Below are positions 155-41,948 of a stretch of DNA of 41,948 nucleotides, in pieces. Positions within the stretch are counted from its first letter, which is position 1; each line of letters begins with the position of its first letter. The stretch is taken from positions 1-41,948 of the IMG/VR virus record IMGVR_UViG_3300044726_000067. One strand, given 5' to 3'. This DNA is from a virus. The notes below the pieces were generated by a model that did not search any database, was not told where the DNA came from, and saw nothing but the letters and a program-made list of their open reading frames with translations. Position numbers and translations under genes: made by a program.

Positions 155-164
155 GGAGAACGCC

Positions 165-663: not shown

Positions 664-684
664 CCGCAAACGAAGGGAAGAGCC

Positions 685-1986
685 ATGACCGATACATCTG
701 CGCCTACCGCGCCGCCTCCGTCCGCGCCTGCACCAGCACCGGCGCAGAGCGAGGTCGTCATCAACCCGAACACGACGACGACCCCGACACCGATCGGAGC
801 GCAAACCCCCGATAAGCCCGCAGAGGCCGGGAGCCGCAGGGAAGCAATCCAGCGCGCGTTCAATCGTTCCCGTGACCCCGACGCGCCCAAGCCGAAAGCG
901 GCCGAGGCGAAGATCGGTCACAACCGGCCGCCCGAGGAGACCAGGGTCGAGCGCAAGGCGCCGCCCAGGGTCGATGACGACGAGGCGGCGAAGGTCGATT
1001 TGCGCAGGCGGCCATCAGATCAGCCGCGTAATCAGGGCCGGTTTGCGCCCCGCAATACTGCACAAAACGATCCGAATACTGCAACGGCGCAGGGTTCCCC
1101 GCAGGCAGGTGCGCCGCAGGTTCGCGGCGGCGTACCTGACGCTACTACATCCCAGTACCGCCAGCTGCCAGAGGGCACACCGTACCGCGACCCGCCGACC
1201 AGGATGGCGGACCACGCCAAGTCGGAGTGGCACGCGGCGCCGGAAAGTGTGCGCGGCGAGGTGCATCGCATGCACACCGAGTTCAGCCGCGCCTACAACG
1301 CCTTCAAGGGCGACCACGACGTCATGAACTCGATCCGCCAGTACCACGAGCTGGCGACAGCGCACGGCACCACGCTCGATCGGGCGCTCTCGAACTACGT
1401 TGGCATGGAGCAAAAACTGCGGTCGGACCCGGTCGGCGGGCTCGACATGATCGTCAACAATCTCAACCTGCAAACGCCGGACGGTCAGCGGATCTCGTTG
1501 CGCGACATCGCCTACCACGTCTTGTCGCAGACGCCGGACCAGCAAAAGGTTCTGCAAACCCAGAACCAGACCTCGGCGCTCTCGCACCAGCTGGGGCAGG
1601 TGCATCAGCAGAACCAGCATCTTGCGCAGCGGCTCGACCAGATGCAGTATGCGCAGCAGTTCAGTTACACCCGCAGTGAGGTCGACCGCTTTGCGGAAAC
1701 TCACCCACGGTTTGACGAACTAGGCGATCTGATCGAGTACGAACTGAAGTTCGGACACGATCTGGAGACTGCTTACAGGCGGGCCGACCTGCTTCGGCCA
1801 ACCCACGCGCCTCAGACGCGCACCCCGGCGGCTCAGACCCGCGCTCCTGACAGAAGCATTTCCGGTGCGCCGGAAAGCGTCTCCGCATCTGGCGGAGAGC
1901 GCCGACAGCGCAAGCCGGGGGAAAAGCCAGCTAGCCGCCGCGACGCCATCCAACGCGCGATCAATCGCGTCAATGGCGCCCTGTAA
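685..1986 (+). CDS. Probable scaffolding protein
   Basis: 433 residues, ATG at 685 behind GGGAAGAG. The N-terminal 150 residues are rich in Pro, Ala, Thr and charged residues and look disordered. The middle (about 170-330) is alpha-helical, with Gln-rich coiled coil around LGQVHQQNQHLAQRLDQM. The C-terminus is a strongly basic helical segment (SRRDAIQRAINR). A near copy of that segment (SRREAIQRAFNR) also occurs near the N-terminus, at about residues 50-61, so the protein has a repeated basic helix at both ends. Position directly before the major capsid gene, no recognisable enzyme motif, and helix-rich composition with a basic C-terminal helix all fit P22-type scaffolds, in which a basic terminal helix binds coat protein. 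Confidence 0.8.
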   Translation: MTDTSAPTAPPPSAPAPAPAQSEVVINPNTTTTPTPIGAQTPDKPAEAGSRREAIQRAFNRSRDPDAPKPKAAEAKIGHNRPPEETRVERKAPPRVDDDEAAKVDLRRRPSDQPRNQGRFAPRNTAQNDPNTATAQGSPQAGAPQVRGGVPDATTSQYRQLPEGTPYRDPPTRMADHAKSEWHAAPESVRGEVHRMHTEFSRAYNAFKGDHDVMNSIRQYHELATAHGTTLDRALSNYVGMEQKLRSDPVGGLDMIVNNLNLQTPDGQRISLRDIAYHVLSQTPDQQKVLQTQNQTSALSHQLGQVHQQNQHLAQRLDQMQYAQQFSYTRSEVDRFAETHPRFDELGDLIEYELKFGHDLETAYRRADLLRPTHAPQTRTPAAQTRAPDRSISGAPESVSASGGERRQRKPGEKPASRRDAIQRAINRVNGAL

Positions 1987-2009
1987 GCAAACCCGATCGG
2001 AGAACCGCC

Positions 2010-3032
2010 ATGCCAAATATTCAAGCGACATCTGCCTATCAACAAGTGCTGTCGATGGCCCTGGAAGAGCGTTCCAGCGGCTACGAGGATATGGTTTCCA
2101 ACAACAACGCGCTGCTCGCCGTGATGAAGCGCAAAGGCCTGTGGCAGACCTATTCAGGTCCGCGCATCAGGCAGACGCTGCAAGTCGGTAAGCAGGTTGC
2201 CCAGTGGTACTCAGGCTACGACCAGCTGCTGAACCCCGCGATCGATCTGTTCAATGACGCCTACTACGATCCCAAGATGGTCGTGGTGCCGATCGTGTTG
2301 TCGATGCAGGAGATCCTGAACAACCAGGGCGACAACCAGCTGATGGACGTCTACGACAGCTACATCGATGCTGCCGAGCGTTCACTGGAAGACACCATGG
2401 ACGCCGCGCTGTATGGCGACGGCACCGCCAACGGCGGCAAGGCGCTGACCGGCCTCGCGACTGCGGTGCCGATCATCACCAACACCGGCAACTACGGCGG
2501 CATCGATCGCGCCACCGCGATCATCTGGCAGACCAAGACCTACGACGCGCAGACCTATCTGCCGGCGGTCGGCACGCAGGTGAACGCCACCACCATCCGC
2601 CCGCTGCTCAACAGCATCATGACCAAGCATTCGCGCAATCGTGACTACGCGGATCTGATCATCATGTCGCCTGAGCATTACGCGGCGTATGACGCGGCGA
2701 CGATCGCGATCCAGCGTCAGACCAACGAGACATCGATGGGCAAGCTGGGTTTCAGCGCGCTCGAATATGTCGGCGGCGGTAAGCGCGCAGAGATCGTGCT
2801 CGACGGCGGCATTGGCTCGAACATGCCAGCGAACACCTCGTTCGGCCTGAACACCGACAGCTTCCGGCTCCGTTATCACCCGGAGCGCAACTTCGACAAG
2901 CTGTTCGACGGCGAAGGTCAGATGCCGATTGATAAGGACGCGATCGCGCAATTCATAGGTTGGATGGGCGAGCTAACGATGACAAATCCAATGTTCAATT
3001 GGCGTCTCATCGACAGCAACCCGGCCGCTTAA
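2010..3032 (+). CDS. Major capsid protein
   Basis: 340 residues, ATG at 2010 behind GGAGAACC. It forms the icosahedral shell. The sequence has the marks of an HK97-fold coat protein of the type found in rhizobial podovirus-like phages: an N-terminal helical segment with SMALEERSSGYEDMV, a central region with SLEDTMDAALYGDG, and a C-terminal part with VGGGKRAEIVLDGG, then RYHPERNFDKL and FIGWMGELTMTNP. Its size fits an unprocessed coat protein with separate scaffold. It sits between scaffold and head-tail genes. Two hairpins follow the gene, which may hold down transcription of the genes after it relative to the coat gene. Confidence 0.93.
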   Translation: MPNIQATSAYQQVLSMALEERSSGYEDMVSNNNALLAVMKRKGLWQTYSGPRIRQTLQVGKQVAQWYSGYDQLLNPAIDLFNDAYYDPKMVVVPIVLSMQEILNNQGDNQLMDVYDSYIDAAERSLEDTMDAALYGDGTANGGKALTGLATAVPIITNTGNYGGIDRATAIIWQTKTYDAQTYLPAVGTQVNATTIRPLLNSIMTKHSRNRDYADLIIMSPEHYAAYDAATIAIQRQTNETSMGKLGFSALEYVGGGKRAEIVLDGGIGSNMPANTSFGLNTDSFRLRYHPERNFDKLFDGEGQMPIDKDAIAQFIGWMGELTMTNPMFNWRLIDSNPAA

Positions 3033-6092: not shown

Positions 6093-6295
6093 TGGCAGAC
6101 TACGCCCTGACAGCGACAGAGTATGTAATCCGCACCGAGGATAGTGCGTGCATTCCACCTGACCCTGACAACCGCGACTGGGTCGAGTATCAGGCGTGGC
6201 TCGAAGACGGTGGCGTGCCCGACCCCTACGTTCCTCCTGCAACAACCAAGCCTGCGCCCGCGAAAGCAAAAGCAAAGCCGGGGAGAAAGCGGTGA
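6092..6295 (+). CDS. Small tail-fibre-associated protein
   Basis: 67 residues from ATG 6092 (GTG 6089 is an alternative). The start overlaps the stop of the fibre gene as TGATG. It carries the pattern IPPDPDNRDWVEYQAWLEDG followed by G-x-P-D-P-Y. This I/R-P-x-D-x-x-N-x-D-(W/Y)-x-x-Y-x-x-W-x-x-x-G-x-x-P-x-P pattern is known from short proteins encoded right after phage tail fibres, and from the ends of tail fibre assembly proteins. The C-terminus is a Lys/Ala/Pro tail. It probably helps fibre folding or is a small fibre component; this is inferred from place and motif. Confidence 0.8.
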   Translation: MADYALTATEYVIRTEDSACIPPDPDNRDWVEYQAWLEDGGVPDPYVPPATTKPAPAKAKAKPGRKR

Positions 6296-7959: not shown

Positions 7960-7969
7960 GGAGAGAACA

Positions 7970-8452
7970 ATGGCGGCCGACGCACCAATTCCGACACCGA
8001 TCCCCGCGGCTGCCGCGGCGGATCCCGCCGCCGACACGGTCGCTGGCTCGCTCGATCAGTTCTACGATCCGGTCGGCGCGATGGGCGGACGGTTCGCGCC
8101 GGCTTACGTCCGCGGCTACGCGCCGTCCGAGGCGGCAGTGGCGGCGTGGCAGGCGAAGAACCGGCCGCTGGAGGGCATGGACCTCGACACCCTGCGCATG
8201 CCGGAGCAGTGGCGTCCACCGGCACAGGTCAATCCCTACGCTGGCGACGTCTACGGCTCAGGCCGCATCCCGGACCAGATGAGCTTCATCACGACCGGCA
8301 AGGGTCGGCTCGACGACAACATTCTGCGCTCGTGGTCACAGGGCGGACCGTATGACGTCGACGCGCGGCGCAACGCGATCGCCAAGCGCCTCACCGACAA
8401 CGAGGCGGCGCAGAAGGCATACACGCCGCCCAAGCAATGGTGGGAGATGTGA
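7970..8452 (+). CDS. Hypothetical virion-region protein
   Basis: 160 residues, ATG at 7970 behind GAGGAGAGAAC. The first 40 residues are Ala/Pro-rich; the rest is polar, with segments PEQWRPPAQVNPYAGDVYG and GPYDVDARRNAIAKRL. No family is recognised. It lies between the tail hub gene and the GNAT-fold gene and overlaps the latter, so it is most likely a minor virion or morphogenesis protein. It has no signal peptide or membrane span. Confidence 0.75.
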   Translation: MAADAPIPTPIPAAAAADPAADTVAGSLDQFYDPVGAMGGRFAPAYVRGYAPSEAAVAAWQAKNRPLEGMDLDTLRMPEQWRPPAQVNPYAGDVYGSGRIPDQMSFITTGKGRLDDNILRSWSQGGPYDVDARRNAIAKRLTDNEAAQKAYTPPKQWWEM

Positions 8453-8949
8453 CGTTCGAGCTGCTCTATGGGTACGACACGCTGGTCGCGAATTTCGTCG
8501 CGCAGCTGATCCCGCATTGCCGCCGAGGCTTCGGCGACACTGCGAAGGCGATCGGCGTGCTCGATGCCGACGGCCGTCTCGTCGCCGGTGTCGTCTACCA
8601 CAACTACGACCCCGAGGCGCAGATCATGGAGATGAGCGGCGCCTCGATCGATCCGCGCTGGATGACGCGGCGCGTGGTCGGCAGCACGTTCCAGTATCCG
8701 TTCTTGCAGTGCGGCTGTCAGATGGTGGTGATGCGTCTGCCGGCCGACAACGAACGCATGCTGCGGCAGTGCGCGGTGTTCAACTTCGTGTTCACCGAGC
8801 TGCCGCGACTGTTCGGGCGCGAGCGTGACGGCGTGGTTGCGACGCTGACGTTCGAGGACTGGGCGGCGAACAAATTCAACAAGCGGTTCAAGTGGCACAT
8901 CGACAACCGGTTGATCTATGCCCCTGAATACACCGAGGAGGCCGCGTGA
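8449..8949 (+). CDS. GNAT-fold acetyltransferase-like phage protein
   Basis: 166 residues if started at GTG 8449 (GTGA overlap with the preceding stop); ATG 8437 would add four residues. The protein begins with FELLYGYDTLVANFVAQLIP, then AIGVLDADGRLVAGVVYHNY, a pattern known from GNAT-like proteins in tail gene clusters of many alphaproteobacterial phages. Later parts (FNKRFKWHIDNRL near the end) fit the same family. Members are thought to have an acyltransferase fold, but a substrate is not known; a role in virion assembly or host protein modification is equally open. The classical R-x-x-G-x-G/A acetyl-CoA loop is not obvious, so activity is uncertain. Confidence 0.8.
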   Translation: MTFELLYGYDTLVANFVAQLIPHCRRGFGDTAKAIGVLDADGRLVAGVVYHNYDPEAQIMEMSGASIDPRWMTRRVVGSTFQYPFLQCGCQMVVMRLPADNERMLRQCAVFNFVFTELPRLFGRERDGVVATLTFEDWAANKFNKRFKWHIDNRLIYAPEYTEEAA

Positions 8950-9380
8950 TGCCTGACATGCGCAGTGCGATTGCGATGGCGATGATGGCGCAGCGCGGCG
9001 GAGGCGGCGGGGGCGGTATCCCTGCTCCGGGCGGAGCGCCGATGGGCGGCCCGCCACCCGGTGGCGGTGTCAATATCGGAGGACCGGCCGCCAGTGCGAT
9101 GATGGGGATGCAGCAAGCGGCACGGAACCGGCCGCTGCCACCACCCGGCAACACGCGCCCTGGCGGAGCGCCTCCGCTTGGCCCGGGCATGGACCGCTTC
9201 ATGCCGGGCGGCATGCCGACCCCCGAGGCGTCGACTGCGATGATGCAGGCGCAGATGGCTGCACCCAACCCGTACATGACGATGCCGGGCTCGCCGGCCT
9301 TAGCGATGGGCGGCATGGGAGCTCCACAGGCATCACCGGACATGCCCGTGCCGCCAATGCCGCCAGTGCCAGGAGCGTAA
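8949..9380 (+). CDS. Gly/Met/Pro-rich low-complexity protein
   Basis: 143 residues from ATG 8949, overlapping the previous stop as TGATG (GTG 8946 is an alternative). After a short helical start (DMRSAIAMAMMAQRG) the chain is almost all Gly, Pro, Met and Ala, with a run of seven Gly. It resembles disordered virion-associated segments. No enzyme or membrane motif is present. It is paired with a second low-complexity gene of the same length directly downstream, which suggests related roles, perhaps in ejection or as flexible head fillers (inference). Confidence 0.7.
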   Translation: MPDMRSAIAMAMMAQRGGGGGGGIPAPGGAPMGGPPPGGGVNIGGPAASAMMGMQQAARNRPLPPPGNTRPGGAPPLGPGMDRFMPGGMPTPEASTAMMQAQMAAPNPYMTMPGSPALAMGGMGAPQASPDMPVPPMPPVPGA

Positions 9381-9827: not shown

Positions 9828-11315
9828 ATGGGTAAGCCATCACCGCCGTCACCGCCTAATCCGGTCGACACTGCGCGCGCCTCGACGTCGACCAATGTCG
9901 GCACGTCGATCACCAATGCGTATCTGGGCAACACCAACCAGATCACGCCGGACGGCAGTCTGACTTACGAGACGACCGGCGAGCACACCTGGGACGATCC
10001 CTACACCGGCTTATCGATAAAGATCCCGACGTTTACGGCGACGCAGAAGCTGTCGGACGCGCAGCAGGCGATCAAGGACCAGACCGACGCCGCCAAGGTC
10101 GGGCTCGCCGGCATGGCGAACTATCAGACCGGGCGCCTGTCCAATCTGATGAAAAGCGAGATCGATCTCAGCAAGGCGCCGACGCCCGGCGACCCCAGCG
10201 GGATCGGCAACATCCTCGCGCCTTCGACCTCGTTCGGCGCCGCCGGCGATCCGCAGGCCAGCCTCGGCGATTACGGCAAGCAACTCACCGAGTTCGGTGA
10301 CGCCGGCGCGATCACGAAAGATTACGGACCGGCAGACAACTTTTCTGCCGATCGCGGGCGCGTCGAGGAGGCGTTGTACGGGCGGCTCAATCCGCAGCTC
10401 CAGCGCGAGCGCGGCAACATCGAGCAGCGCCTCGCCGACCAGGGCATTCGCTACGGCAGTCAGGCCTACACGGCGGCGATGGATGACTACAATCGCCAAG
10501 CCAATGATCTGCGCCTCGGCGTGACCGCCGCCGGCGGCCAAGAGCAGCAGCGCATGATGGACATGGCTGCGCAGCGCGCCGGCTTTCAGAACGCCGCGCA
10601 GCAGCAGGACTTCACCCAAAAATACGGCCGCGCGCAGTTCGCCAACGAAGGGCAAAAGCAACAATTTCAGGAGACGCTCCAGGCTGGTCAGTTCGCCAAT
10701 GAAGCGCAGCGCAACAAGTTCACGCAGGAGGCAGCACGCGGCGAGTTCGCCAACGCCGGGCTGGCGCAGCAGGTCGCGCAGAAGCAGTCCGAGTTCAATG
10801 CGAAGAATATGGCGCGCAATCAATACATGTCGGAGCAGTACGCGCTCCGCAACCAGCCGATCAACGAAATCTCGGCTCTACTTAGCGGTTCACAGATTAA
10901 CAATCCAAACTTTGTGAATACGCCAAATAATCAAATCCCGACTACTGATGTCGCCGGCTTAATCAACACAAGATTTAGCCAGGACATGGACATTTATAAG
11001 CAGGAGAGCGCGAACTATAACGCGATGATGGGCGGTTTGATGGGGATGGCCGGCGGGATGATGAAAATGTCTGACCGCGCGCGCAAAGACGACATCCACA
11101 AGATCGCGACGGTGTTCTCGGCGAGTGATGACGGCGGCAGCAAGAAACTGCCGATCTACAGCTACACCTACAAAGACGATCCAGACAACACGCCTCAGAT
11201 CGGGCCGATGGCGCAAGACGTCGAGAAGATTGACCGCGGCGCAGTGCAGACGCATCGCGGCACCAAGTACATCGACGAGCAGCGAGTGATGGGCAACATT
11301 CTGAGGGCTGCGTAA
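9828..11315 (+). CDS. Virion protein with C-terminal peptidase S74 (self-cleaving chaperone) domain
   Basis: 495 residues, ATG at 9828 (GAGGGTGAGAC upstream). The N-terminus has the pattern NVGTSITNAYLGNTNQITPD, then GSLTYETTG, found in a family of tail-cluster proteins. Residues about 255-335 are Gln/Ala-rich with near repeats of a QFANE unit (three copies), likely a long helix. From about 414 the sequence SDRARKDDI, then LPIYSYTYKDDPDNTPQIGP and MAQDVEK, is that of peptidase S74 domains, which aid trimer folding and then cut themselves off. The Ser-Lys pair expected for cleavage is S415 and K420, five apart as in endosialidase. It may be a fibre or ejection-associated protein. Confidence 0.85.
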   Translation: MGKPSPPSPPNPVDTARASTSTNVGTSITNAYLGNTNQITPDGSLTYETTGEHTWDDPYTGLSIKIPTFTATQKLSDAQQAIKDQTDAAKVGLAGMANYQTGRLSNLMKSEIDLSKAPTPGDPSGIGNILAPSTSFGAAGDPQASLGDYGKQLTEFGDAGAITKDYGPADNFSADRGRVEEALYGRLNPQLQRERGNIEQRLADQGIRYGSQAYTAAMDDYNRQANDLRLGVTAAGGQEQQRMMDMAAQRAGFQNAAQQQDFTQKYGRAQFANEGQKQQFQETLQAGQFANEAQRNKFTQEAARGEFANAGLAQQVAQKQSEFNAKNMARNQYMSEQYALRNQPINEISALLSGSQINNPNFVNTPNNQIPTTDVAGLINTRFSQDMDIYKQESANYNAMMGGLMGMAGGMMKMSDRARKDDIHKIATVFSASDDGGSKKLPIYSYTYKDDPDNTPQIGPMAQDVEKIDRGAVQTHRGTKYIDEQRVMGNILRAA

Positions 11316-11316
11316 C

Positions 11317-14300
11317 ATGGCTGGAGAAGACGCAATCAGCTTCATCTTCGGTGGCAACACCGGACTGACGCAGGAAGAGCTGAAGAAACGCCGCGCGCGT
11401 GTCGCCGCCGAACTGGCACGGCAACACCCGTTCCCGAAAAATATCGGCGAGGGTCTGACCTATCTCGGCAACTCGATCGGCGATGTCGGGCTGGAGTGGA
11501 GACTGCGGCAGGCCGAGGCCGAGGCGCTGAAGCGTCAGCAGGGCATCGTGGGCGGAGCTCCGCCGGAAAGCGACGGCTCCAATCCGATCGCGCGCCCAAG
11601 CGATCGCCCGGTGGTGACGGTGGCTCCGCCGCCGGCGGCAGCGCCCGCAGCAGCACCTGCCGCGCGCCCGGTGCGGACTGTTCCGGTGCGGCCGTCCGTG
11701 GCGCCGTCGACCGAGACGGCGGCACCGCCGCCGGCGCTGGTCGATCCCAAAACTCCGGTGACCGTCGACACGGGCGACCCCGACGCCCCGGTGGTTGCGC
11801 CACGCATCGAGATGGTGAACCCGCCGCCCGACACCGCGCCTCCGCCGCCGGTCGAGACGGCGCCCGACACCGACAGCCCACCGCCTTTCTTTGAGGGCCG
11901 GCCTAACAATCAAGTGAGCCAGCCGCACCCGGCGCTCGCGGTGCCGCACCTGGGCGGGCCGCGGTTCTCGCCGCCGCCGACCAGGGCCGAGCAGATGTCA
12001 CAGCAGATGCGGCAGCCCGTGCCGGTGCCGCAGGCATCGCCCGACGCCTTTGGTGGACGGTTCGGCGGCGACCAGCTGCGTGCGATGGAAGGCGAGGGCG
12101 AGCCGGTCCCGTACTTCGGCGAGAGCGCGTCACTGCCGCGCGGCGTAGCGCAGCGGGAGCCGCTGCGGAGGACCGACCGGCTGCCGCTGCCACCGCAGCC
12201 AGAGTTTGCCGAGGAGGGCTCGCCGTTCAACTCGATGGACGCCGCCGCACCAGAGCTGCCGCCAGCGCCGCCGCCGATCGGCAGGGCGGCGCCGATGCCG
12301 CGACCGCGGCCGAACGTCGAAGGCGGGCTCAACACCCTCGATCGGCAGTCGGCGGCGCCCGCGCCACAACAGGTCGCGGACGGCGGCTATAACTCGATCG
12401 ACGCGCAGGCGGGCTTCCGGCGCCCGACCCCGGGCTACATGCAGGACGCGATCGCGCGCGCCACCCCAGACCCCGACCGGCAGGCCTACCTCGGCTCGCT
12501 GGCGGGGAGCGAGGCGCGCAGTGCCCGCGAGGTGTCACCGACCGGCGCCGCCGGGCCGTTCCAGTTCACCCGCGGCACCGGCAGGCAGTACGGCATCCCC
12601 GGCAACCGGCGCATGGATCTCGACGCCTCCGCGGCCGCCGCGAACCGGCTGACCGACGACAACGTCGCCGCGTTCGAGCGCATCAACGGCCGACCGCCCA
12701 GTCCGGCGGAGATGGCGGTGATGCACCAGCAGGGTGGCGTCACCGGTGCAAGAATGATCGCGGGCACCGGCAATGCACCGGCGCACAATCTGTCGGTTAA
12801 CCGGGTCGACCCGAACGCCTCGCCGCAGCAGGCGACCGCCAGGATCAAGGAATATTACGGCATGCCGGACGAGCCGCCTGGGGGTGGGGGCACGGCGCCG
12901 ACCCAGACCGTCAGCCAGCCGCCGCGGCAGGCGACCATGATCGGCGGCGGGCAGTCACAGGACCCCCGCGCCGCGATCGTGCAGGCGCTAGTCGATCAGC
13001 AGGGCGGCCCCCGTGAGGCCAGCCAGTCGTTCACCGACCCGTCTGGAGGCGGGCAGCAAAACCCTATTTTGGCGGACCTGACGGGTCCGCAGGCGACCCA
13101 GACTGGGGCATCCCCGACAGCGGGACGCTCGACGTCGACTTCGGCAGCTTCTGGTAATCTGCCGATCACGGTCAGCGACATCTCACCGATCCCGATCGCG
13201 CAGCGCGGGAGCTCGATGGGAGCACCGCCGGTGTCGTCTGACATGCAGCGTGGCCCGGCTGTGCCACAGGCGCCGGGCGTCGACCCGCGCGCCAATGAGC
13301 CAATCCCGGACACGGTCCAGCCGCCGCCGCTGGTGCCGCCCGGCCCGCGGCCAGAGCCGCCTACGCGGCTAGACCCGACCCCGGCGGAGCGGTACTGGCG
13401 GGCGGTCGAGCGTGATCCGTATGCCAGCGACACGACCAAGGCACACGCCAAAGAGGTCATTGCGCGTGAGGCGCATATCCGGGAGTGGAAGCAGAAGCAG
13501 GTCGACGACAACTACAACTATCTGCGCGGTCGCCACGACCACGACACTGACGAATACAACAAGCGGGTCCGCGAGGCGCCGAAAGAGGCGCTGGAGCAAC
13601 TCGCAATCCGGCTGAAGATCGCGAAGGATCAGGCCGACCTGCGCAATCAGCCGCTCGTATCCGCCAAGATGCAGGCCGACCTCGATAAGGTGCTGAAAGA
13701 ACTGAACGAGCCGCACCGTGTGTCGATTGCCGGGACGCAGTTCGAGCAGGCGCCGACGCGGCCGGGCCAGCAGCCGCAGCCGTACAAGGTATCCCCCGGA
13801 CTACCGCAGCCCAAGGAAGAGCCGCTGACGCAGCAGCAGTCTGAGGCACTGATATTTGTACAGCGCGTTAAGCCAGATTTGCGTGTGCTGGAGGATCTCG
13901 ATCACGGTGCTGTACTGGCAAACCCGACCGAGGCGTTCCGCGGCAATATCCCGTTGATCGGCAACATAACTGCAACGGACGCCTACCGCCGCGCCCGCAA
14001 CGCGGCGATAAACTTTGAAGGCGGCTTCATGAAGCTGGTCAGCGGCGCGGCGGTGTCGCCATCCGAGTACGGCCGCAACATGCCCGCCTTCCTGCCGTTG
14101 GCAGGCGACGACAAGAACGAGCTGATCGAGAAGACCGCCCGCCGCGAACGGTTCACCCGGGCTGTTGAGAGTGTGACCGGCCGCGCGGGGATGGAAAAAA
14201 TCCGCGAGCAGATGGACGCCGAAAACGACAATTATCGGTTCCGGGCCGAGGGCCGCAAAGACCCGGTGCATGTCCAGTCGATCGAGGAGGCACGCGGGCT

Positions 14301-33578: not shown

Positions 33579-33733
33579 TGCGACGGTGGCCGCTGATCAG
33601 GCATGTCCGATATTTTTACGCGCGCTGGCGCGTCAATCAGCACTACGCCATGTGGGGCAGCGTTGGCGCGTTGCCGGTTCACGCTGACAAGGATTACGAA
33701 GTGCTCGACGCGATCTGGCGAGGCGAGCGATGA
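33578..33733 (+). CDS. Small conserved phage protein, 51 residues
   Basis: ATG at 33578, coupled to both neighbours (TGATG before, ATGA after). The sequence RRWPLIRHVRYFYARWRVNQ, then HYAMWGSVGALPVHADKDYE and LDAIWRGE, is a pattern I know from short proteins coded directly before terminase in rhizobial and related phages. It is basic and aromatic and may be a small packaging partner. An in-frame extension upstream to 33500 has no good start. Confidence 0.75.
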   Translation: MRRWPLIRHVRYFYARWRVNQHYAMWGSVGALPVHADKDYEVLDAIWRGER

Positions 33734-35094
33734 TCGACATCACGCTGCCTCACAACGGATGGACGCCGCGGCCGCATCAGCTGGCGCTGTGGAAGTATCT
33801 GCAAGCCGGCGGTAAGCGCGCGATCGCGATCTGGCACCGGCGCGCCGGCAAAGACGAGGTCGCGCTGCATCACACCGCAGTTGCGGCGGTGAAGCGTGTC
33901 GCCTCGTACTGGCATTGCCTGCCTGAGTTTGAGCAGGCCAGAAAAGCCATATGGAGTGCGGTCAATGCGCATACCGGGAAGAGACGCATCGAGGAGTGTT
34001 TCCCTCCAGATTTCATCGAGAGCGTCAACGAAGGGTCCATGTTTATCCGCTTCAAAAACGGAAGCACGTTCCAATGCATTGGCAGTGACCGCTACGACGC
34101 CACAGTCGGTGCAGGTGTCGCAGGAATTGTGTACTCCGAGTACAGCCTCGCGAACCCTTCAGCGTGGGCATATCACCGGCCAATGGTCGAAGAGAACCAA
34201 GGCTGGGTGGCGTTCATCACTACTCCCAGAGGACGCAATCACGCATTTTCACTTTTCAACTACGCCCAACAATCTCCCGAGTGGTTCGCCGAGCTCCTCA
34301 CCGTCAAGGACACTGGTGCCCTATCAGACGCGGCTCTTGACGAAACGCTGAGGGAGTACACCGCGCTGTACGGCGCGGACGCTGGCGAGGCCAGCTTCCT
34401 GCAAGAATACATGTGCTCGTTCACGGCCGCGGTGCTGGGCGCGTTCTATGCGCGCGAGATGGCAGACGTGCGCAGGGAAGAGCGCATCGCGCCGATCGAG
34501 CCCTTACCCGGCGAGCCCGTGCATCGTGCCTGGGACATTGGCACGCGCGACGACACCTGCATCTGGTGGTTCAGTGTGCGCGGCGGACAGGTCTACATCT
34601 ACGACGTGCTGGCGACGTCAGGCGTTGGCGTCGAGTGGTATCGCGACGAGATCGATCGCCGCGAGACCGATCGCGGCTGGGTGCATGGCGACGACTGGGT
34701 GCCGCAAGATGCCAAGGTTCTGGAGTGGGGATCGGGACGCACTCGTGTCGAGACTATGCAGAGCCTGGGTCTGCATCCGCGGCTGGCTCCTGCGGCCTCG
34801 TTCAACGACGGCATCAACGCCGCCAGACGCACGCTCCCGCTCTGCGTATTTCATCCGCGCTGCGAAGAGGTCGGATTGGCGGCGCTCGAACAATACAGAA
34901 GGGAATGGGACGATGAAAAGAAAGCGTTCCGCGCGAGCCACGTTCACGATTGGACGTCGCACCCGGCGGACGCGTTTCGGTACTTGGCGCTGAGCTGGAT
35001 ACGCGCGCCGTTGCGTGTGGTCGAGCCGCCAGCGCAGGAGGGCTGGCACATCCCGCCACCGCCCGAGCGTCGACGGGGAGGCATCCGGCTATGA
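33730..35094 (+). CDS. terL: Terminase large subunit
   Basis: 454 residues, ATG overlapping the previous stop. It is the packaging motor and nuclease. The N-terminal ATPase has a terminase-type Walker A, HRRAGKD (K41), and Walker B GIVYSE (E137), followed by the coupling motif FITTPRGRNH. The C-terminal RNase H-like nuclease starts with RAWDIGTRDD (D269) and ends with HDWTSHPADAFRYLAL (D414). The length is typical for phage large terminases. It comes before the portal gene, as usual. Packaging type (headful or site-specific) cannot be told from this sequence alone, though the closed contig fits a circularly permuted or short-repeat genome. Confidence 0.95.
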   Translation: MIDITLPHNGWTPRPHQLALWKYLQAGGKRAIAIWHRRAGKDEVALHHTAVAAVKRVASYWHCLPEFEQARKAIWSAVNAHTGKRRIEECFPPDFIESVNEGSMFIRFKNGSTFQCIGSDRYDATVGAGVAGIVYSEYSLANPSAWAYHRPMVEENQGWVAFITTPRGRNHAFSLFNYAQQSPEWFAELLTVKDTGALSDAALDETLREYTALYGADAGEASFLQEYMCSFTAAVLGAFYAREMADVRREERIAPIEPLPGEPVHRAWDIGTRDDTCIWWFSVRGGQVYIYDVLATSGVGVEWYRDEIDRRETDRGWVHGDDWVPQDAKVLEWGSGRTRVETMQSLGLHPRLAPAASFNDGINAARRTLPLCVFHPRCEEVGLAALEQYRREWDDEKKAFRASHVHDWTSHPADAFRYLALSWIRAPLRVVEPPAQEGWHIPPPPERRRGGIRL

Positions 35095-35375
35095 AGCAGT
35101 ACAAGAAGCGCGCGGCCCGGCGCATCGTGCGCAAGTCACGCAAGGTGTTGTCCAAGCTGGATGTGAGCTGGGACGAGGCTGTATCGACGCTGGCTGCCGC
35201 CATGGTCGAGGCGATCTGGCACGAGGGCGGCGACCGCGACGACGCCAGGGCTACCGCCGACATTGTCCACTACATGGTCTGCGCCGGGCTCGACGTCTGG
35301 TATGACGCCGAGGACAAGAACAAGCTGCCGAACGTGGTGCAGTTTCGGCGCAAAAAGAAGTATTTCCGATCATGA
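35091..35375 (+). CDS. Small basic hypothetical protein
   Basis: 94 residues from ATG 35091, overlapping terminase stop (ATGA). The N-terminus is highly basic (KQYKKRAARRIVRKSRKVL), the centre helical (AVSTLAAAMVEAIWHEGGDR, then HYMVCAGLDVWYDAE), and the end basic again (RRKKKYFRS). It could bind nucleic acid. The gene lies in the operon between terminase and portal. No family is recognised. Confidence 0.75.
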   Translation: MKQYKKRAARRIVRKSRKVLSKLDVSWDEAVSTLAAAMVEAIWHEGGDRDDARATADIVHYMVCAGLDVWYDAEDKNKLPNVVQFRRKKKYFRS

Positions 35376-35692
35376 GCATGCAATCGTCATCACAGCGGGA
35401 CGCGATCGTCGAGGCGTTGATGGCGATCCGCAAGCCTGACCCTGAGTTCAACTACACCATGATGCAGAACTGGCTGCGCACGAACCCTGAAGGGTTCGAG
35501 GGCTACGCCGAGGGGCAGCCAATGCCGAGCAACCGGCTGGGCCCGTTCGCGGCGCCGGGCGCGACACAACGCTACATCGACAGCCTGACCAACGCGCCGT
35601 TCTCCGACCAGCAGATCATCGAGCGAGATCCACACGCCGCTGGCGAGAACTGGATACCGTTCAGCGCGGAGGTAGGGGCCGGCTATGAGTAG
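35372..35692 (+). CDS. Hypothetical protein between terminase and portal
   Basis: 106 residues, ATG overlapping the previous stop (ATGA). Polar chain with segments ALMAIRKPDPEFNYTMMQNW, LRTNPEGFEGYAEGQPMP and PFSDQQIIERDPHAAGENWI. It begins with a small helix and is otherwise poorly structured. It may be a virion-associated or packaging helper protein. No domain is known. Confidence 0.75.
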   Translation: MSMQSSSQRDAIVEALMAIRKPDPEFNYTMMQNWLRTNPEGFEGYAEGQPMPSNRLGPFAAPGATQRYIDSLTNAPFSDQQIIERDPHAAGENWIPFSAEVGAGYE

Positions 35693-35716
35693 GCTCAAAC
35701 TGGAAAGGTTGCGACG

Positions 35717-36001
35717 ATGACGATCAAGCGTGCCGAGCCCAAGACCGCACTGACGTTCGAGGAAGAGATCACCGCGGCATTCATGCATTACGTTCGCGGC
35801 ATCGCGCAGCAGGACATCGCCATCATGATGGGCGGCGTCAACGGCGGCCGCGTCAATGAAGCCTGCCTCGCCATCAAGGGCGCGCTCGCCGCCAACCGGC
35901 GCAAGGTGCGAACCGAATACCGTGTCGAGCGGTCACACCGGCCTACGGCCGAACACGTTGCGGAGATGCTGGCGCTGAACGGGGACGCACCAAATGGCTG
36001 A
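35717..36001 (+). CDS. Helix-turn-helix-like protein before portal (small terminase candidate)
   Basis: 94 residues, ATG at 35717, with AAAGG upstream. The segment AAFMHYVRGIAQQDIAIMMG, then GVNGGRVNEACLAIKGAL, reads like a helix-turn-helix (helix, Q-Q-D-I-A as first helix of the motif, N-G-G-R-V-N-E-A as the second). The same Q-x-D-(I/L)-A-x-x-x-x-V-N-x-G-R-V-x-E-A pattern occurs in short DNA-binding-like proteins near terminase in many phages. A DNA-binding small terminase or late regulator would suit. Stop overlaps the portal start. Confidence 0.75.
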   Translation: MTIKRAEPKTALTFEEEITAAFMHYVRGIAQQDIAIMMGGVNGGRVNEACLAIKGALAANRRKVRTEYRVERSHRPTAEHVAEMLALNGDAPNG

Positions 36002-38321
36002 TCCAACGCCCGGCAAGCCGGTTGAGAACGACATCCGCCACGACGATCTGGAGTTCAATCCGGCGCTGGAGCCGCGCAAGTCGAAGGCGTGGCTGAACAT
36101 GTTGCAGGAGAGCGAAGACGCGTTCCAGCCGTGGAACGATCACTGCGACCGCATCGACAAGCAGTTCGCCAACCTGGAGCGGCTGTCGATGATGGCGCGC
36201 GACAAAGAGTTCCAGATGTTCTGGGCCAACGTCGAAGTGATCAGGCCGGCAATCCTGGCGAAGCCGCCGCGGCCGGTGGTGGTGACGAAGTTCAAGGACC
36301 GTCGCCCGGTCTATCAGGCCGCGGCCGAGGTGATGGAGCGATGCACCACGGTGGCGTTCGACATCGCGCGCATCGAGGATCTGATGCTGCTGGTGCGTGA
36401 CGATCTGGTGATGGCATCACGCGGTGTTGCGTGGTGCCGCTACGAGAGCGCCCGCGGCGACAGCTACTACGAGCACGAGAAGGTCTGCATCGACTTCAAG
36501 CAGCGTCGCGACTTCCTGCACAGCATCTCGCGATCGTGGCCCGAGGTCACCTGGGTCGCGGCCGCGAGCTACCTGACGCGCGCGCAGGCGCGTAAGCGGT
36601 TCCGCAAGCACTCAGGCGACGCCTACCAGGACGCCGAGTACAAGGTCGACAAGGACAGCAAAGAGATCGGCGGCGCCGACAGTCGCGAGCGCGCAAAATT
36701 CTGGGAGATCTGGTCGAAGACCGAACGCCGCGTGGTGTGGGTCGCGCAGGGCTGCGAGAAGATCCTCGATGAGGACGAGCCGCACCTCGACCTCGAATGC
36801 TTTTTCCCGTGTCCCAAGCCGGCCTACGGCGTGGTGCAGCGCGGCTCGCTGGTGCCGGTGCCGGACGTGTTGCAGTATCGCGACCAGCTGGAGGAGCTGA
36901 ACCTGCTGACCAGCCGCATCCACGCGCTGTCAGACGCGCTGGAGGTCAAAGGGTTCTACCCAAGCGGCGGCGCTGAGCTCGCATCCGCGATCGAGACCGC
37001 GATCAAGACCAAGACGCCCGGCCGCATGCTGATACCGATCGCAAATTGGGCCGCCTTCGGCGGCACCAAGGAAGTGATCGTGTGGATACCGATCGAGGCG
37101 ATCGCGCAGACCATCACCGCGCTGGTGGCGCTGCGAAAACAAATCATTGAAGACATTTATCAGATCATGGGGCTGTCCGACATCATGCGCGGCGCCAGCG
37201 ATGCGCGCGAGACGCTGGGTGCGCAGCAGCTGAAGAGCCAGTTCGGGTCGAGCCGCATCCGTGACAAGCAGACCGAGATGGTTCGCATGTCGAAGGATCT
37301 GGTCGGCATCACCGCCGAGATCATCTGCCAGAGCTACAGCCCGGTTACCATCATCGAGATGAGCCAGACGCAGCTGCCGACGCAGGCGATGCGTGACAAG
37401 CAGATCCAGCAGTTGCAGATGCAACTCGGCAACCAGCAGCTCGCGATGCAAAAACTACAACAGCTGCCGCAGGCGCAGCAGATGGCGCAGCAGAACCCGC
37501 AGCAGGCACAGGAGCTGATGCAGAAGGGCCAGCAGCTGCTGCAACACGGCCAGGACGCGATCAAGAAGATCCTGGCCAAGCCAACGATCGAGCAGGTGCT
37601 GACGCTGTTCGAGAACACCCGCGCCAAGTCATTCATCTTCGACATCGAGACCGACAGCACGATCATGATCGACGAGAACGCGGAGAAGCAACGCCGCGGC
37701 GAGTATCTCGCGGCATTGTCGGCGCTGCTACCGCAGCTGGCTCAGATGCTGGCGGCCGAGCCCAAGGCCGCGGAGTTCTGCGGCGAGCTCTTGAAGTTCG
37801 CCACCGCGCCGTTCCGTGCCGGCCGCCAGTTCGAAGGCGCGATCGACGAGCTGGTCGAGAACATGAAGCAGAAGGCCGACCAGCCCAAGCCAGACGATCC
37901 GATCACCGCGCAGAACAAGGCCGCGATGCAGATCGAGACCATGAAGAACGATCGCGCCAAGGAGCGCGACAAGGCGGAGATGGCGCTGAAGGCTACCGAG
38001 CTGAAGCAGCGTGACGAACACGAGAAGCTAAAGATCTCCAGCCAGGAGCGCATCAAGGCCGCCGAGCTGCGGGCGAAGCAGCAGGACGACGAGGCGCGTG
38101 CGCAGCTGACCAACAGCAAGGCGATGCAGCAACGCGAGAAGCATCAGGCTGACATGTTCGGCAAGGACCAGGACATCCAGGTCGCGCAGCAGAAGGCCGA
38201 GATCGCCCGGCAGGCGGCCGAGGACCGCAGGATGGACATGGCGGCGCGGCAGAGCGAGCGCCTCGCCGCGCAGCAGTTCAAGCAGTCGCAGCAGGTGACG
38301 CCGTACTTCGGAGGGCACTGA
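35994..38321 (+). CDS. Portal protein
   Basis: 775 residues, ATG 35994 overlapping the upstream gene. Twelve copies form the ring for DNA entry. N-terminal and central parts have the P22 gp1-like build: WANVEVIRPAILAKPPRPVV, DLVMASRGVAWCRYESARGD, AKFWEIWSKTERRVVWVAQG, QYRDQLEELNLLTSRIHALS (wing and stem), then RKQIIEDIYQIMGLSDIMRG and ETLGAQQLKSQFGSSRIRDK. Past residue 460 the chain is Gln-rich and helical to the end, with strong coiled coil (DKAEMALKATELKQRDEHEK). This very long C-terminal part would make a barrel inside the head, as in P22. The size is like P22 portal (725 residues). Confidence 0.95.
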   Translation: MADPTPGKPVENDIRHDDLEFNPALEPRKSKAWLNMLQESEDAFQPWNDHCDRIDKQFANLERLSMMARDKEFQMFWANVEVIRPAILAKPPRPVVVTKFKDRRPVYQAAAEVMERCTTVAFDIARIEDLMLLVRDDLVMASRGVAWCRYESARGDSYYEHEKVCIDFKQRRDFLHSISRSWPEVTWVAAASYLTRAQARKRFRKHSGDAYQDAEYKVDKDSKEIGGADSRERAKFWEIWSKTERRVVWVAQGCEKILDEDEPHLDLECFFPCPKPAYGVVQRGSLVPVPDVLQYRDQLEELNLLTSRIHALSDALEVKGFYPSGGAELASAIETAIKTKTPGRMLIPIANWAAFGGTKEVIVWIPIEAIAQTITALVALRKQIIEDIYQIMGLSDIMRGASDARETLGAQQLKSQFGSSRIRDKQTEMVRMSKDLVGITAEIICQSYSPVTIIEMSQTQLPTQAMRDKQIQQLQMQLGNQQLAMQKLQQLPQAQQMAQQNPQQAQELMQKGQQLLQHGQDAIKKILAKPTIEQVLTLFENTRAKSFIFDIETDSTIMIDENAEKQRRGEYLAALSALLPQLAQMLAAEPKAAEFCGELLKFATAPFRAGRQFEGAIDELVENMKQKADQPKPDDPITAQNKAAMQIETMKNDRAKERDKAEMALKATELKQRDEHEKLKISSQERIKAAELRAKQQDDEARAQLTNSKAMQQREKHQADMFGKDQDIQVAQQKAEIARQAAEDRRMDMAARQSERLAAQQFKQSQQVTPYFGGH

Positions 38322-38322
38322 C

Positions 38323-38652
38323 GTGGACGATCGGTGGAAGGTTGGCGAGATGGCTGCGCTCGACACCTACGAGCCGGTGCCGGGCAACATTGACCTCACG
38401 ATCCGGCCGCGGGTTGTGAACCCGGACGGCAGCGTCAGCACGGTGCGCTCGATGAGCTTCAACGAAGACGGCCGCGAGGTGCTGGTGCCGACCGTGAGTG
38501 ACGACGGCCGCATCATGACCAACGAGGAGGCGATCGAGCTCTACCGCAACAGCGGCCGGCACCTCGGAATGTTCAAGACGCCGGAGGAGGCGACGGCATA
38601 CGCCAAGCGGCTCAGCGCGGAGCAGGCGCAACGGTATGGGGTGGGCAGATGA
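38323..38652 (+). CDS. Small virion-type protein with conserved DGR/EVL domain
   Basis: 109 residues from GTG 38323, two bases after portal stop. The domain reads GNIDLTIRPRVVNPDGSVST, VRSMSFNEDGREVLVPTVSD, DGRIMTNEEAIELYRNSGRH and LGMFKTPEEATAYAKRLSAE. I know this pattern from small proteins and domain modules in internal virion proteins of podovirus-like phages. Its N-terminus (W-K-V-G-E-M-A-A-L-D-T-Y-E) is almost repeated at the N-terminus of the next protein. It is likely carried within the head or at the portal. Confidence 0.85.
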   Translation: MDDRWKVGEMAALDTYEPVPGNIDLTIRPRVVNPDGSVSTVRSMSFNEDGREVLVPTVSDDGRIMTNEEAIELYRNSGRHLGMFKTPEEATAYAKRLSAEQAQRYGVGR

Positions 38653-40460
38653 GCAACTGGTGGGGCTTCGGCGAGACCGCAGCGCAGGACAATTACGAAG
38701 AGCTGCCGCCACCGACGACGCGCATCACGGTGCGGCCGCAGCGGCCGATCGAGTGGCCGCAGGATGCCCCGACCGAGGAGGAGCGCCGGATCGCGGAGTA
38801 TGTCACGGCGCTGCAACCGCCGCCCAAGCGGGAGGCGCCGCCGCCGATCCAGCCCAGCGTCTATGACACGCAGCAGTTCATGCTGCGACCACCAAAGGCA
38901 ATCGAGGTGCCGCTGAACCGGCCGCAACAGGCGGAGGCGCGTTCGATCGAGCCGACGCTGCGCGAGCGTGGCGCGCAGACAATGATGGGCGAGAGCCCAT
39001 CGACGACACGGGCCCGCCTCGTGCGCACATTGATGGGGACTACCGGAGTTGGCGAGACTGGCCTAGGCGCGGTCGACTTTGTGCCGTTCCTCGGGTCGGC
39101 GCTGGGCTCGCAGGAGGAGGCGGCGAAGGGCGACTATCAGATGGCTGCCGTCAACGCGATGCCGGGCGGCAAGCCCGCGCGCAAGGCGACAGGTGCGTTA
39201 AAGAAGGTGGTTGCGGAGGCGCTGACGCCGTCCAAGATACCAGAGCGCAATGTCGGGTTCGCGCCGGGCTCAGTGCTCGACCCGGCGACTGCGCCGGTTG
39301 CGCCGCTGCCGCCCGGTAGTCTGGCGGCGCCGTATGTAATGAACCCGGTGCGGGTCGCGAACCCCGGCGTCTACAAGCGCCCAGACGTAATCGCGCGCGA
39401 GGCGGCGGCAAATGTCGTGCCAGAGCACCCGGCGCTGAAGGCGTTGTTCGGCGTCACGCGCGACGACCTCTACCAGATCAGTCAGCAGGGCAGGCGGCAG
39501 GGCAACGTCACCGAGCCCAACATCTGGATGCCCAACAAGCCCGGGAAGCCAAACGAGGCCGCACTGGCGGTGATGAATGAGCCAAATGCGCGGCGGCTTG
39601 TCGACACGCTGGCGGAGGCCCGCAAGTACGAGGGCTTAGAGAAGGGCATGGTGCCTTGGTACGTCATGGACCCGCTGTATCAGCGCATGGAGAGGCTGGT
39701 CGGGCCTGAGCGTGCCGCGAAGGAATACCATGACTTCAATATGAGCATGACGCCGTTCTCGGCGGGCTCCAGCGTCCCGATGGAGATTAACCGCGGCACC
39801 GCCGCCAACATGATGCGGGTGCAGGGTCAGTACCCGACCTTCCAGCAGTGGGGCGGCCTAGCCGATTACAAGCGCGGGCCAGACTTTCCGGAGGAGCTGC
39901 GTGGCGTCAAAGGCATGATGGGGCACGGCGGTCAGGCCAAGGCGGTGGCGCGCTACATGGCGACCGGCAAGCATGGCTACGGCACCGACAGTGTGAAGAT
40001 CAATTTGTACTCCGGCGCGTCAGGCGTGCCGGAGACGGGTTTCCAGACCCGCTGGGCGGTGCCTGACGCACACTACACCCGCGCACTCGGCGTGCCCGAT
40101 GCACGCACGTTCAAGGACTATGACAACTTCATGGGCGGCACCGAGTATCGGCAGATCGGGCCGTGGTATCGAGAGGCCGTTGCCGAGCCACTTGGCATTG
40201 AGGCGGTGCCTGCGCAGGCGTTGCAGTGGGGCACCTATGGACTGGAGACTGGCGTCAAGACCAAGATCGGCGCCGGCAAGCTGGAATTGATTTCGCAGGC
40301 GATCTGGGACCGCGCTGCAAAGTTAGGGATCGACCCCAAAAAACTGCGAGACGATGTATTGGAGGGTAAAGCACATGCGATTTGGCTGCTGGGTGCGTTG
40401 GTCCCGGCAGGGATGATGGGCGGGCTGGCCGCGCAGGATAACTACGACGATAAGCTGTAA
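38649..40460 (+). CDS. Internal virion / ejection-type protein (DUF7178-like part)
   Basis: 603 residues, ATG overlapping the previous stop (ATGA). The N-terminus (residues 1-30) has GFGETAAQDNYEELPPP and TRITVRPQ, both motifs shared with other virion proteins of this genome. Residues 60-230 are Pro/Ala-rich with one hydrophobic stretch. Residues about 330-540 (VPWYVMDPLYQRMERLVGPE, then PFSAGSSVPMEINRGTAANM, GGQAKAVARYMATGKHG, WAVPDAHYTRALGVPDARTF) resemble a phage domain I recall as DUF7178. The end, AAQDNYDDKL, repeats the N-terminal motif. It is probably ejected with DNA. An enzyme activity is not seen. Confidence 0.75.
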   Translation: MSNWWGFGETAAQDNYEELPPPTTRITVRPQRPIEWPQDAPTEEERRIAEYVTALQPPPKREAPPPIQPSVYDTQQFMLRPPKAIEVPLNRPQQAEARSIEPTLRERGAQTMMGESPSTTRARLVRTLMGTTGVGETGLGAVDFVPFLGSALGSQEEAAKGDYQMAAVNAMPGGKPARKATGALKKVVAEALTPSKIPERNVGFAPGSVLDPATAPVAPLPPGSLAAPYVMNPVRVANPGVYKRPDVIAREAAANVVPEHPALKALFGVTRDDLYQISQQGRRQGNVTEPNIWMPNKPGKPNEAALAVMNEPNARRLVDTLAEARKYEGLEKGMVPWYVMDPLYQRMERLVGPERAAKEYHDFNMSMTPFSAGSSVPMEINRGTAANMMRVQGQYPTFQQWGGLADYKRGPDFPEELRGVKGMMGHGGQAKAVARYMATGKHGYGTDSVKINLYSGASGVPETGFQTRWAVPDAHYTRALGVPDARTFKDYDNFMGGTEYRQIGPWYREAVAEPLGIEAVPAQALQWGTYGLETGVKTKIGAGKLELISQAIWDRAAKLGIDPKKLRDDVLEGKAHAIWLLGALVPAGMMGGLAAQDNYDDKL

Positions 40461-40477
40461 CTCCAGAGGAGAGCCAC

Positions 40478-41209
40478 ATGGCCCAAAGCGCACTAACCGT
40501 TACGCCGCCGAACCCGACGCCGCCAACCAACATGACGTTCGTGGGGGCGACGCCGCCGAACCCGCCGAACTACACCAAGACGACGTACAACGACCTGACC
40601 AACTGGGGCGGCAACACGCCGACCTCGCCGCCGCCGTACTACGACGACGGCGCCGCCGGGCCGCTGACGGCATTCGCTGCCAACAAGGCGGCGCTGGCGT
40701 CAGGGTCGGGCGCGAGCGCAGGTGGCACCGAGGGCACCTATCCTGGCGCCGCCGGCGTCACGCCGCCGAACGTCAACTTCAACGGCGCGGTGCCGGCGTC
40801 GACCAGCGTACCGCACGAGGCCGCCGGCACCGAGGTAGTGGTGACATCACCCGGCTCGAACGCGAATTTTCCGACCGCGCAGGTGTCGGTGCTGGGCAGC
40901 TACACCGCGACGCCGAACCGCGACCATGCGTCGAGCCTGAGCCCCGGCACCAACGCGGCGCTGACCTCGATCACGCCCGGATCGAGCGTCTCCGGTGTCG
41001 GCACGACAACCCTTGGCGCGACCGGGACCAATTTCACCAAGCAGAGCGTTATCTGGGTGAACGGCGTGCCTCAGAACACGACGTTCAATTCCGCGACAAG
41101 CCTGACCGCGCCTGCGGTGACCAAGAAGACCTCCGCAGGGCCGTGGCCGGTGACTGTCGTAACCGGAGGGGTCGTTGTAACGGCTCCGCAGACATGGACG
41201 TTCACATGA
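40478..41209 (+). CDS. Virion surface protein with IPT/TIG-like domain
   Basis: 243 residues, ATG 40478 behind GAGGAGAGCC. The first 150 residues are rich in Pro, Thr, Asn, Ala and Gly. The last 85 residues (SITPGSSVSGVGTTTLGATG, then TNFTKQSVIWVNGVPQNTTF) follow the IPT/TIG pattern of an Ig-like beta sandwich (P-G-S...G..F...S-V-(I/V)-W-V-N-G). Such domains often decorate phage heads or tails and bind carbohydrate weakly. It is paired with a second IPT/TIG-like gene just downstream, and both lie between portal and scaffold genes, which points to head decoration. Confidence 0.8.
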   Translation: MAQSALTVTPPNPTPPTNMTFVGATPPNPPNYTKTTYNDLTNWGGNTPTSPPPYYDDGAAGPLTAFAANKAALASGSGASAGGTEGTYPGAAGVTPPNVNFNGAVPASTSVPHEAAGTEVVVTSPGSNANFPTAQVSVLGSYTATPNRDHASSLSPGTNAALTSITPGSSVSGVGTTTLGATGTNFTKQSVIWVNGVPQNTTFNSATSLTAPAVTKKTSAGPWPVTVVTGGVVVTAPQTWTFT

Positions 41210-41948
41210 GCACGAAAAACTATGAGCAGGAGAGGGCGCCTCCACACGATAACGACGCCGTCATGCATGACGGCGGCGACGATCGGCTGCTGATCGACAA
41301 GCCGTTCGACTTCATCGAGCGCACGCGGCCAGAGGACCGAGTGCCCGCGGAGGGTTTCCACGGGCAGATCACCCGCGACAACGTCAACCCGAACATTCCG
41401 AGCGCACCGCACGGCGAGGGGCAGATCGTCGACCCCAACACACTGGGCATGCCGCAAGGGATCGAGGGTGTGCCGGCACCACAGGTGCAGCAGCAAGACC
41501 CAACTGCACCGCACGGGTCGGGCACAGCCGCCAGTATCAACGAGCCTCCGGGTTCGACGATCGGCAGCGAGAACCCTGGTGGGCCGGGGGGCCCACCGGC
41601 GGGAGGCGGCGGACAGCCGGGCGGCGAGACGCAGACGCCGACTATCACGGCGCTGGAGCCGGATGAGTGTACGATCGGCGAGGAGACGTTCGATCTGTTT
41701 GTCAGCGGCACCAACTTCACCGAGGACAGCGTGATCGTGTTCGCCGGCCAGGACGAGCCCACTGACTTGGAAGATGACGGCACACTGTCGACCGGCATCA
41801 ACATGGACGTGTGGCACGGCCCGGACGTGGTGCAGGTGATGGTGAAGAACGGCGACAAGACATCGAACGCGATGCCGTTCACGTTCCACGCCGAGGCCGC
41901 GCAGCGTAAGGCGCCGCCCAAGGCGAATAAGCGCAAGGGCAAGGGCGT
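41206..41948 (+). CDS. Second IPT/TIG-like virion protein (runs off the end; continues at 1-154)
   Basis: Starts at ATG 41206, overlapping the previous stop (ATGA). With the part at 1-154 it is 255 residues. The N-terminal 140 residues are Pro/Gly/Asp-rich (GGPGGPPAGGGGQPGGE). Then comes an Ig-like IPT/TIG domain (ITALEPDECTIGEETFDLFV, SGTNFTEDSVIVFAGQD, VVQVMVKNGDKTSNAMPFTF). It shares the SGTNFT-x-x-S-V-I core with the protein upstream, so they are paralogues or share a repeated module. The C-terminal tail is basic. Confidence 0.85.
   Translation, partial: MSTKNYEQERAPPHDNDAVMHDGGDDRLLIDKPFDFIERTRPEDRVPAEGFHGQITRDNVNPNIPSAPHGEGQIVDPNTLGMPQGIEGVPAPQVQQQDPTAPHGSGTAASINEPPGSTIGSENPGGPGGPPAGGGGQPGGETQTPTITALEPDECTIGEETFDLFVSGTNFTEDSVIVFAGQDEPTDLEDDGTLSTGINMDVWHGPDVVQVMVKNGDKTSNAMPFTFHAEAAQRKAPPKANKRKGKG
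41820..41948. repeat. Terminal direct repeat, right copy
   Basis: Same as bases 1-129 but for C at 41940 (T at 121). It shows that the sequence closes on itself with a unit of about 41,819 bases. Confidence 0.97.

Follow-up and report, generated by a model that had tools for sequence, protein, structure and literature searches.

A short peptide, best written W-x-M-G-x-L-A-x-Q-D-x-Y, recurs at the free ends of otherwise unlike proteins that are encoded beside the portal gene in one lineage of phage heads. We think that it is probably a docking signal, specific to this lineage, that targets ejected cargo to the capsid. There are no proteomics or binding data, and this reading rests on sequences alone. 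What we observe is the peptide itself, its terminal place, its restriction to one genomic slot and one head lineage, the unlikeness of the proteins that carry it, the lack of it where the same domains occur in phages with other heads, and the action of selection on its amino acids.

The motif and its distribution

The window, by which we mean the whole stretch of DNA that we analysed, comprises positions 1-41,948 of IMG/VR record IMGVR_UViG_3300044726_000067, and the region under study is 38323-40460. All window features that are given here as start..end are on the plus strand. The portal gene (35994..38321; 775 aa; PHROG 12082 portal, E 1.3e-176), which marks the motif-bearing head lineage, is directly followed on its 3' side by two genes for putative cargo proteins, which are coupled through an ATGA overlap. 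The first gene (38323..38652, with a GTG start and GGAGGG 5' of it) encodes a 109-aa protein, in which an N-terminal copy of the motif, WKVGEMAALDTYEPVP (38335..38382), is followed from residue 21 by a domain that runs GNIDL...STVRSMSFNEDG (38383..38646). The second gene (38649..40460), whose ATG start overlaps the preceding stop, encodes a 603-aa protein with one copy at its N-terminus, WGFGETAAQDNYEELP (38661..38708), and another at its extreme C-terminus, MGGLAAQDNYDDKL (40416..40457). Between these copies lie a long, poorly conserved, and probably disordered linker (38709..39281) and a conserved helical core (39282..40383, approximately residues 212-578), to which DUF7178-type cargo is distantly related.

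The original prediction had described W..GE.AA.D.YE..P at the two adjacent N-termini and its recurrence (AAQDNYDDKL) at the C-terminus of the larger protein, and all three copies are indeed there. The wording of the motif can be improved, however: the M and L positions matter, while the "E" and the trailing "E..P" are weak. That both carriers are virion proteins, as was also claimed, is an inference from their place beside the portal gene.

The cargo region of this lineage is closed by a gene for a MAQS/TIG-like protein (40478..41209), which lacks the motif and which we used as a boundary marker. Two candidate partners for the motif are encoded near the left end of the window: the major capsid protein (2010..3032; PHROG 9953, E 6e-80) and a probable scaffold (685..1986; PHROG 25516, virion structural), whose role is inferred from its place 5' of the capsid gene and from its basic C-terminus. 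The late gene cluster seems to span both ends of the window, with the terminase, portal, cargo, and MAQS genes on the right (33730-41948) and the scaffold and coat genes on the left (1-3032), so the record looks circularly permuted.

To rank the copies, we scored all 67,568 ten-residue words in the six frames of the window with a weight matrix that was built only from the copies in other phages. The C-terminal copy of the 603-aa protein ranked first (35.2) and its N-terminal copy ranked second (25.4). The copy in the 109-aa protein (core VGEMAALDTY, 38341-38370) ranked sixth (9.9); it is a diverged copy. We also considered IGNITATDAY in a 1017-aa virion protein (13957, score 15.6), but it is internal and is probably a chance match.

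Our first DNA pattern, W..GE.AA.D.Y, matched 14 contigs in IMG/VR; several of the matches were the starts of other proteins beside a related portal, and one was a C-terminus. Alignment of the portal gave 80 loci with a related portal, and in many of these, genes between the portal and MAQS genes bear MGxLAxQDxY at the start, at the end, or at both. Altogether we collected about 146 distinct copies of [M]GxLAxQDxY, nearly all of them near the start or stop of proteins encoded between the portal and the scaffold or capsid. Conservation in relatives had been named as a test of the original prediction, and dozens of relatives do carry the motif at the free ends of unlike proteins.

These counts are far above what shuffled sequences give. 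The motif is present in the N-terminal 60 residues of 27 of 135 distinct cargo ORFs (versus 0.10 expected) and in the C-terminal 30 residues of 21 of 122 (versus 0.045 expected). Its presence in non-virion proteins would have refuted the prediction, but among the other ORFs of the portal loci, no N-terminus had it (0/960), and the three C-terminal matches outside of the cargo proved to be cargo genes whose start was misplaced upstream, inside the portal gene. The copies at the two ends are also recognised by each other's matrix. Above 12 bits, the matrix from N-terminal copies detected 29 of 122 cargo C-termini versus 3 of 915 others (the same three misannotated cargo genes), and the matrix from C-terminal copies detected 33 of 135 cargo N-termini versus 0 of 960 others. 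Because the pattern that picked the copies behind these matrices holds G, A, and Y constant, no independent support comes from those columns. The pattern makes no demand on position -2, where W is nonetheless enriched (18 of 45 N-terminal copies), nor on positions 6 and 11, where Q and P are.

A second search did not use the portal as its entry point. Scanning the DNA of all of IMG/VR for MGxLAxQDxY gave 110 stretches, of which we kept 80, with 88 matches: 55 were within 9 residues of the stop, 25 were near the N-terminus, 5 more were N-terminal with a misjudged start, and 3 were internal. The same family of portal, coat, scaffold, or MAQS protein was encoded at 73 of the 80 loci. The N-terminal place is not exclusive, as C-terminal copies are equally common or commoner. 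A search of cellular genomes for the portal found none. Across 257 Gb of genome sequence from bacteria and archaea, a stricter motif pattern matched 8 times, and no relatives of the phage genes stood at any of these loci; five of the matches read as the motif, but none of the five is C-terminal, so they look like chance matches. Some limits apply: the contigs are metagenomic, our ORF calling was simple and some starts are wrong, and carriers that are kin are not independent.

Head type, peptide, and competing explanations

How might such a signal work? We suggest that the cargo, whose genes fill a variable slot that separates the portal gene from the scaffold and coat genes, bears the motif on flexible tails at its N-terminus, its C-terminus, or both. 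While the procapsid assembles, these tails would bind a conserved inner component of the head (the portal, the scaffold, or the inner surface of the coat), and unrelated enzymes would thereby be enclosed with the DNA. The enclosed enzymes would then be ejected into the cell, where they may act early, in host takeover. Packaging, the partner, ejection, and early action are all inferred, and the presence of the carriers inside the virion is itself inferred from gene position and kinship.

The same cargo domains occur beside other heads without the motif, so what the motif follows is the head type, not the enzyme. There was no copy at the 26 loci where homologues of the GNIDL domain lie beside other portals, nor at four loci (L005-L008) that have other heads and a protein about 67% identical to the window's core. 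Sulfitobacter phage phiGT1 encodes an ART-type relative of the lineage's cargo between its portal and scaffold, and this too lacks the motif. This linkage to head type is what a docking signal would predict and what a catalytic or host-binding motif would not. The idea of docking, which was the heart of the original prediction, is thus strengthened, with the partner and packaging still unproved. The motif tails of both window proteins (residues 5-15 of the 109-aa protein and the C-terminal residues 583-603 of the 603-aa protein among them) were modelled with low confidence (pLDDT <50), as expected for a short linear motif.

Relatives of the portal, scaffold, and coat also occur in RHph_I3_18 and other phages that lack the motif, which counts against our reading. 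We considered whether the motif mimics the C-terminus of the coat, which contains WMGELT (FIGWMGELTxxNPxFNWR), but RHph_I3_18 keeps this segment just as well and has no motif-bearing cargo, so the segment and the motif do not go together.

It is conceivable, although we consider it unlikely, that the motif joins cargo to cargo, with an N-terminal copy bound to a C-terminal one in an internal assembly or an ejection channel, and that it does not bind the portal, scaffold, or coat at all. Carriers with a copy at each end are frequent (44 of the 98 distinct motif proteins), and neighbouring cargo genes each have a copy. But carriers with one copy are common as well (31 have it only at the C-terminus and 23 only at the N-terminus), slots with a single carrier occur, and a partner in the head accounts better for the link with one head type.

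The terminal place of the motif and the flexibility of the tails would also suit a cleavage or maturation site for a head protease, with the tails removed after assembly, much as gp21 removes the targeting sequences of T4 (PMC9026906). We think this quite improbable. Most C-terminal copies have only 1-9 residues between them and the stop, where a cut would scarcely shorten the protein, and we saw no prohead protease among the annotated genes of the window, although this was not a full search.

AAQDNY resembles the start of the ssrA tags of alphaproteobacteria (AANDNY-like), which we take to be the part that binds the adaptor. Because of this likeness, one might imagine that the motif acts after ejection via a host factor such as the SspB adaptor, but we give that very little credence. 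At the position of the ssrA Asn, N-terminal copies have Q 27, L 6, T 4, P 2, and S 2 times out of 45 and C-terminal copies have Q in 30 of 36, and Asn is not among these commonest residues. A tether of the ssrA/SspB type should have an AAND-like core with Asn, and the motif, with Q there, does not qualify. Furthermore, the strongly kept MGxL has no counterpart in ssrA, and the tie to head type would go unexplained.

Finally, the modularity of the slot is plain, and a core is common to the two largest families of carriers, so the copies might be alike merely through common descent or as short DNA homology for swapping cargo cassettes, with no function for the peptide, but this is hardly tenable given how many synonymous codons are used at the fixed residues, that the flanks are unconserved and hold little information, and that copies stand at both ends of unlike proteins. 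In fact all synonymous codons occur at fixed residues (for Ala4, GCC 64, GCG 55, GCA 16, and GCT 11 times in 146 copies), and the window's own three copies differ at synonymous positions. A DNA-level repeat is ruled out by this codon use, and because synonymous codons vary, selection acts on the peptide and not on the DNA.

Carriers and the two cargo proteins

The docking signal remains our preferred explanation, and under it the carriers would be head cargo of many kinds. By sequence, the 98 distinct motif proteins make up 16 families, or about 11 without the evident chance matches. Such matches account for a few of the 98, and some C-terminal copies were inherited along with a common C-terminal domain, so these are not 98 independent gains. 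When the carriers are aligned, they have almost nothing in common save the two motifs. Matches to known families include DUF7178 (12 members), ART-PolyVal (6), LPD23 (4), and putative metallopeptidases; one carrier (L057) has both LPD23 and a metallopeptidase. There were also PHROG matches to endolysin-like proteins for a few carriers and a weak DarB-like match for a single one. Searches with PADLOC and NCBIfam gave nothing convincing, and neither of the window's cargo proteins had a match in Pfam.

Some proteins encoded in the same slot have no copy, which counts against docking. Among in-slot ORFs of at least 150 residues, 24 of 66 lack the motif; most of these look like appendage or decoration proteins or are spurious, and a few have degenerate copies. 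At four loci (L079, L102, L114, and L119), motif-less in-slot proteins of 389-1036 aa are encoded 3' of the portal gene and have a common FG..VYLRRW-like C-terminus. Perhaps appendage proteins have a terminal tag of another kind, and this is it.

The GNIDL domain, which takes up about 86 aa of the 109-aa protein, is strongly conserved as well as widespread among ejection and DNA-transfer proteins of unrelated phages. It is found at 53-65% identity inside proteins that are annotated as DNA transfer, IVP-C-like, or structural, and the best matches have 63-65% identity across 78-81% of the 109-aa protein. We saw it in 19 phage records and in loci L029-L054, where it is N-terminal, internal, or C-terminal in the protein that contains it. 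It matched no Pfam model, and a comparison of structures gave no significant match and no clear fold from the PDB.

In the 603-aa protein, the linker of about 190 residues is variable, with a pLDDT of around 25 for most of residues 55-219. A near-identical phage (L004/L021) encodes a version of 588 aa, in which 15 residues of the linker are missing and both motifs are kept. The kinship of the core to DUF7178-type proteins rests on a profile alignment (hhalign probability 97.5%, E 8e-12). The AlphaFold2 model of the core has a mean pLDDT of 48.6 and had no significant match in the PDB; a second look found a weak match to the MUTYH glycosylase (Z 2.4), which is no more than a lead. We also note that VPDAH (40059-40073, residues 471-475), in which V, D, and H are invariant, matches TVDTHAF of the DUF7178-type relatives, and that this stretch calls to mind the VDTH signature of HhH-GPD DNA glycosylases.

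Known signals and a possible general rule

The original prediction stated that no such signal was known to be described. This holds for the motif itself, as we found no description of MGxLAxQDxY in the open-licence literature, but not for the kind of signal. The internal proteins IPI-IPIII of T4 have a ten-residue N-terminal capsid targeting sequence (CTS; Mullaney and Black 1996, via PMC9026906). In both cases a terminal peptide of about ten residues is common to the unlike, fast-changing head cargo of one phage group, and the T4 cargo is ejected into the host; judged as a functional class, by a short peptide common to the unlike cargo of one phage group, the motif qualifies. The differences are that the sequence is not the same, that our motif is also C-terminal and is often at both ends, that the annotated genes of the window give no sign of its removal by a protease, and that the present phage is smaller and has a separate scaffold-like protein. 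(The T4 protein Alt is processed at both ends; PMC9026906.) So the principle is known from the T4 CTS, while in the open-licence literature we could find no description of the motif, of its use at both ends, or of its restriction to one lineage.

The Dar proteins of phage P1 (DarA, Hdf, and DdrB) are carried in the head and protect the incoming DNA, and one of our carriers resembles them through its weak DarB-like match. In DarA, folded domains make the contact with the coat and Pro cleaves the N-terminus; no common short motif is mentioned there (PMC12810830). Polyvalent proteins form a class for which packaging and injection have been predicted (Iyer et al. 2017, PMC5512222). Among our carriers, several have domains of this class (ART-PolyVal, LPD23, metallopeptidase) and are likewise encoded beside head genes, and some, such as the one at L057, combine several effector domains in one protein, whereas the window's two proteins have no Pfam match. 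In the passages that we searched, that work describes domains and reports no common short terminal packaging peptide. The 109-aa protein resembles ejection proteins of the P22, T7, or N4 type, in that its GNIDL domain is homologous to the one in DNA transfer or IVP-C-like proteins, which is the criterion for that likeness; unlike the present lineage, those homologues lack the motif.

Detailed knowledge of how phages choose the cargo of their heads is confined to a few models, T4 among them. If a portable ten-residue tag at either end does the choosing here, then unknown effectors that are delivered from the head could be identified by sequence alone across the lineage, the window's proteins included. 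The motif would also be a ready-made tag to try for loading chosen reporter proteins into heads, and the recruitment of polyvalent proteins to the virion would become a directly testable question.

More tentatively, since we rather doubt that it holds so widely, terminal address tags that are specific to head type could be a general rule for phage cargo. Each lineage would have its own peptide (MGxLAxQDxY in the present one), which the portal, scaffold, or coat of that lineage would read, and gaining this tag at either end would turn any enzyme into head cargo. Where other lineages have homologous cargo at this locus, they may use tags of their own, such as GLLDD in Microcystis phage MJing1 or an N-terminus of about 50 residues in Roseobacter phage CRP-901.

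In MJing1 (L242, 2796-5002), two unlike neighbours between the portal and the scaffold have GLLDDAP and GLLDDYP at their N-termini and have similar GLL-acidic C-termini; possibly the GLLDD peptide is the tag of another lineage. In CRP-901 (L246), gp68 and gp66 (10172-11542 and 12321-13880) have in common only about 50 N-terminal residues (34% identity, E 8e-4), and their C-termini look alike. At 5168-9327 of the same locus, gp72 and gp73 are alike mainly in their last 108 or so residues (37%, E 1e-18).
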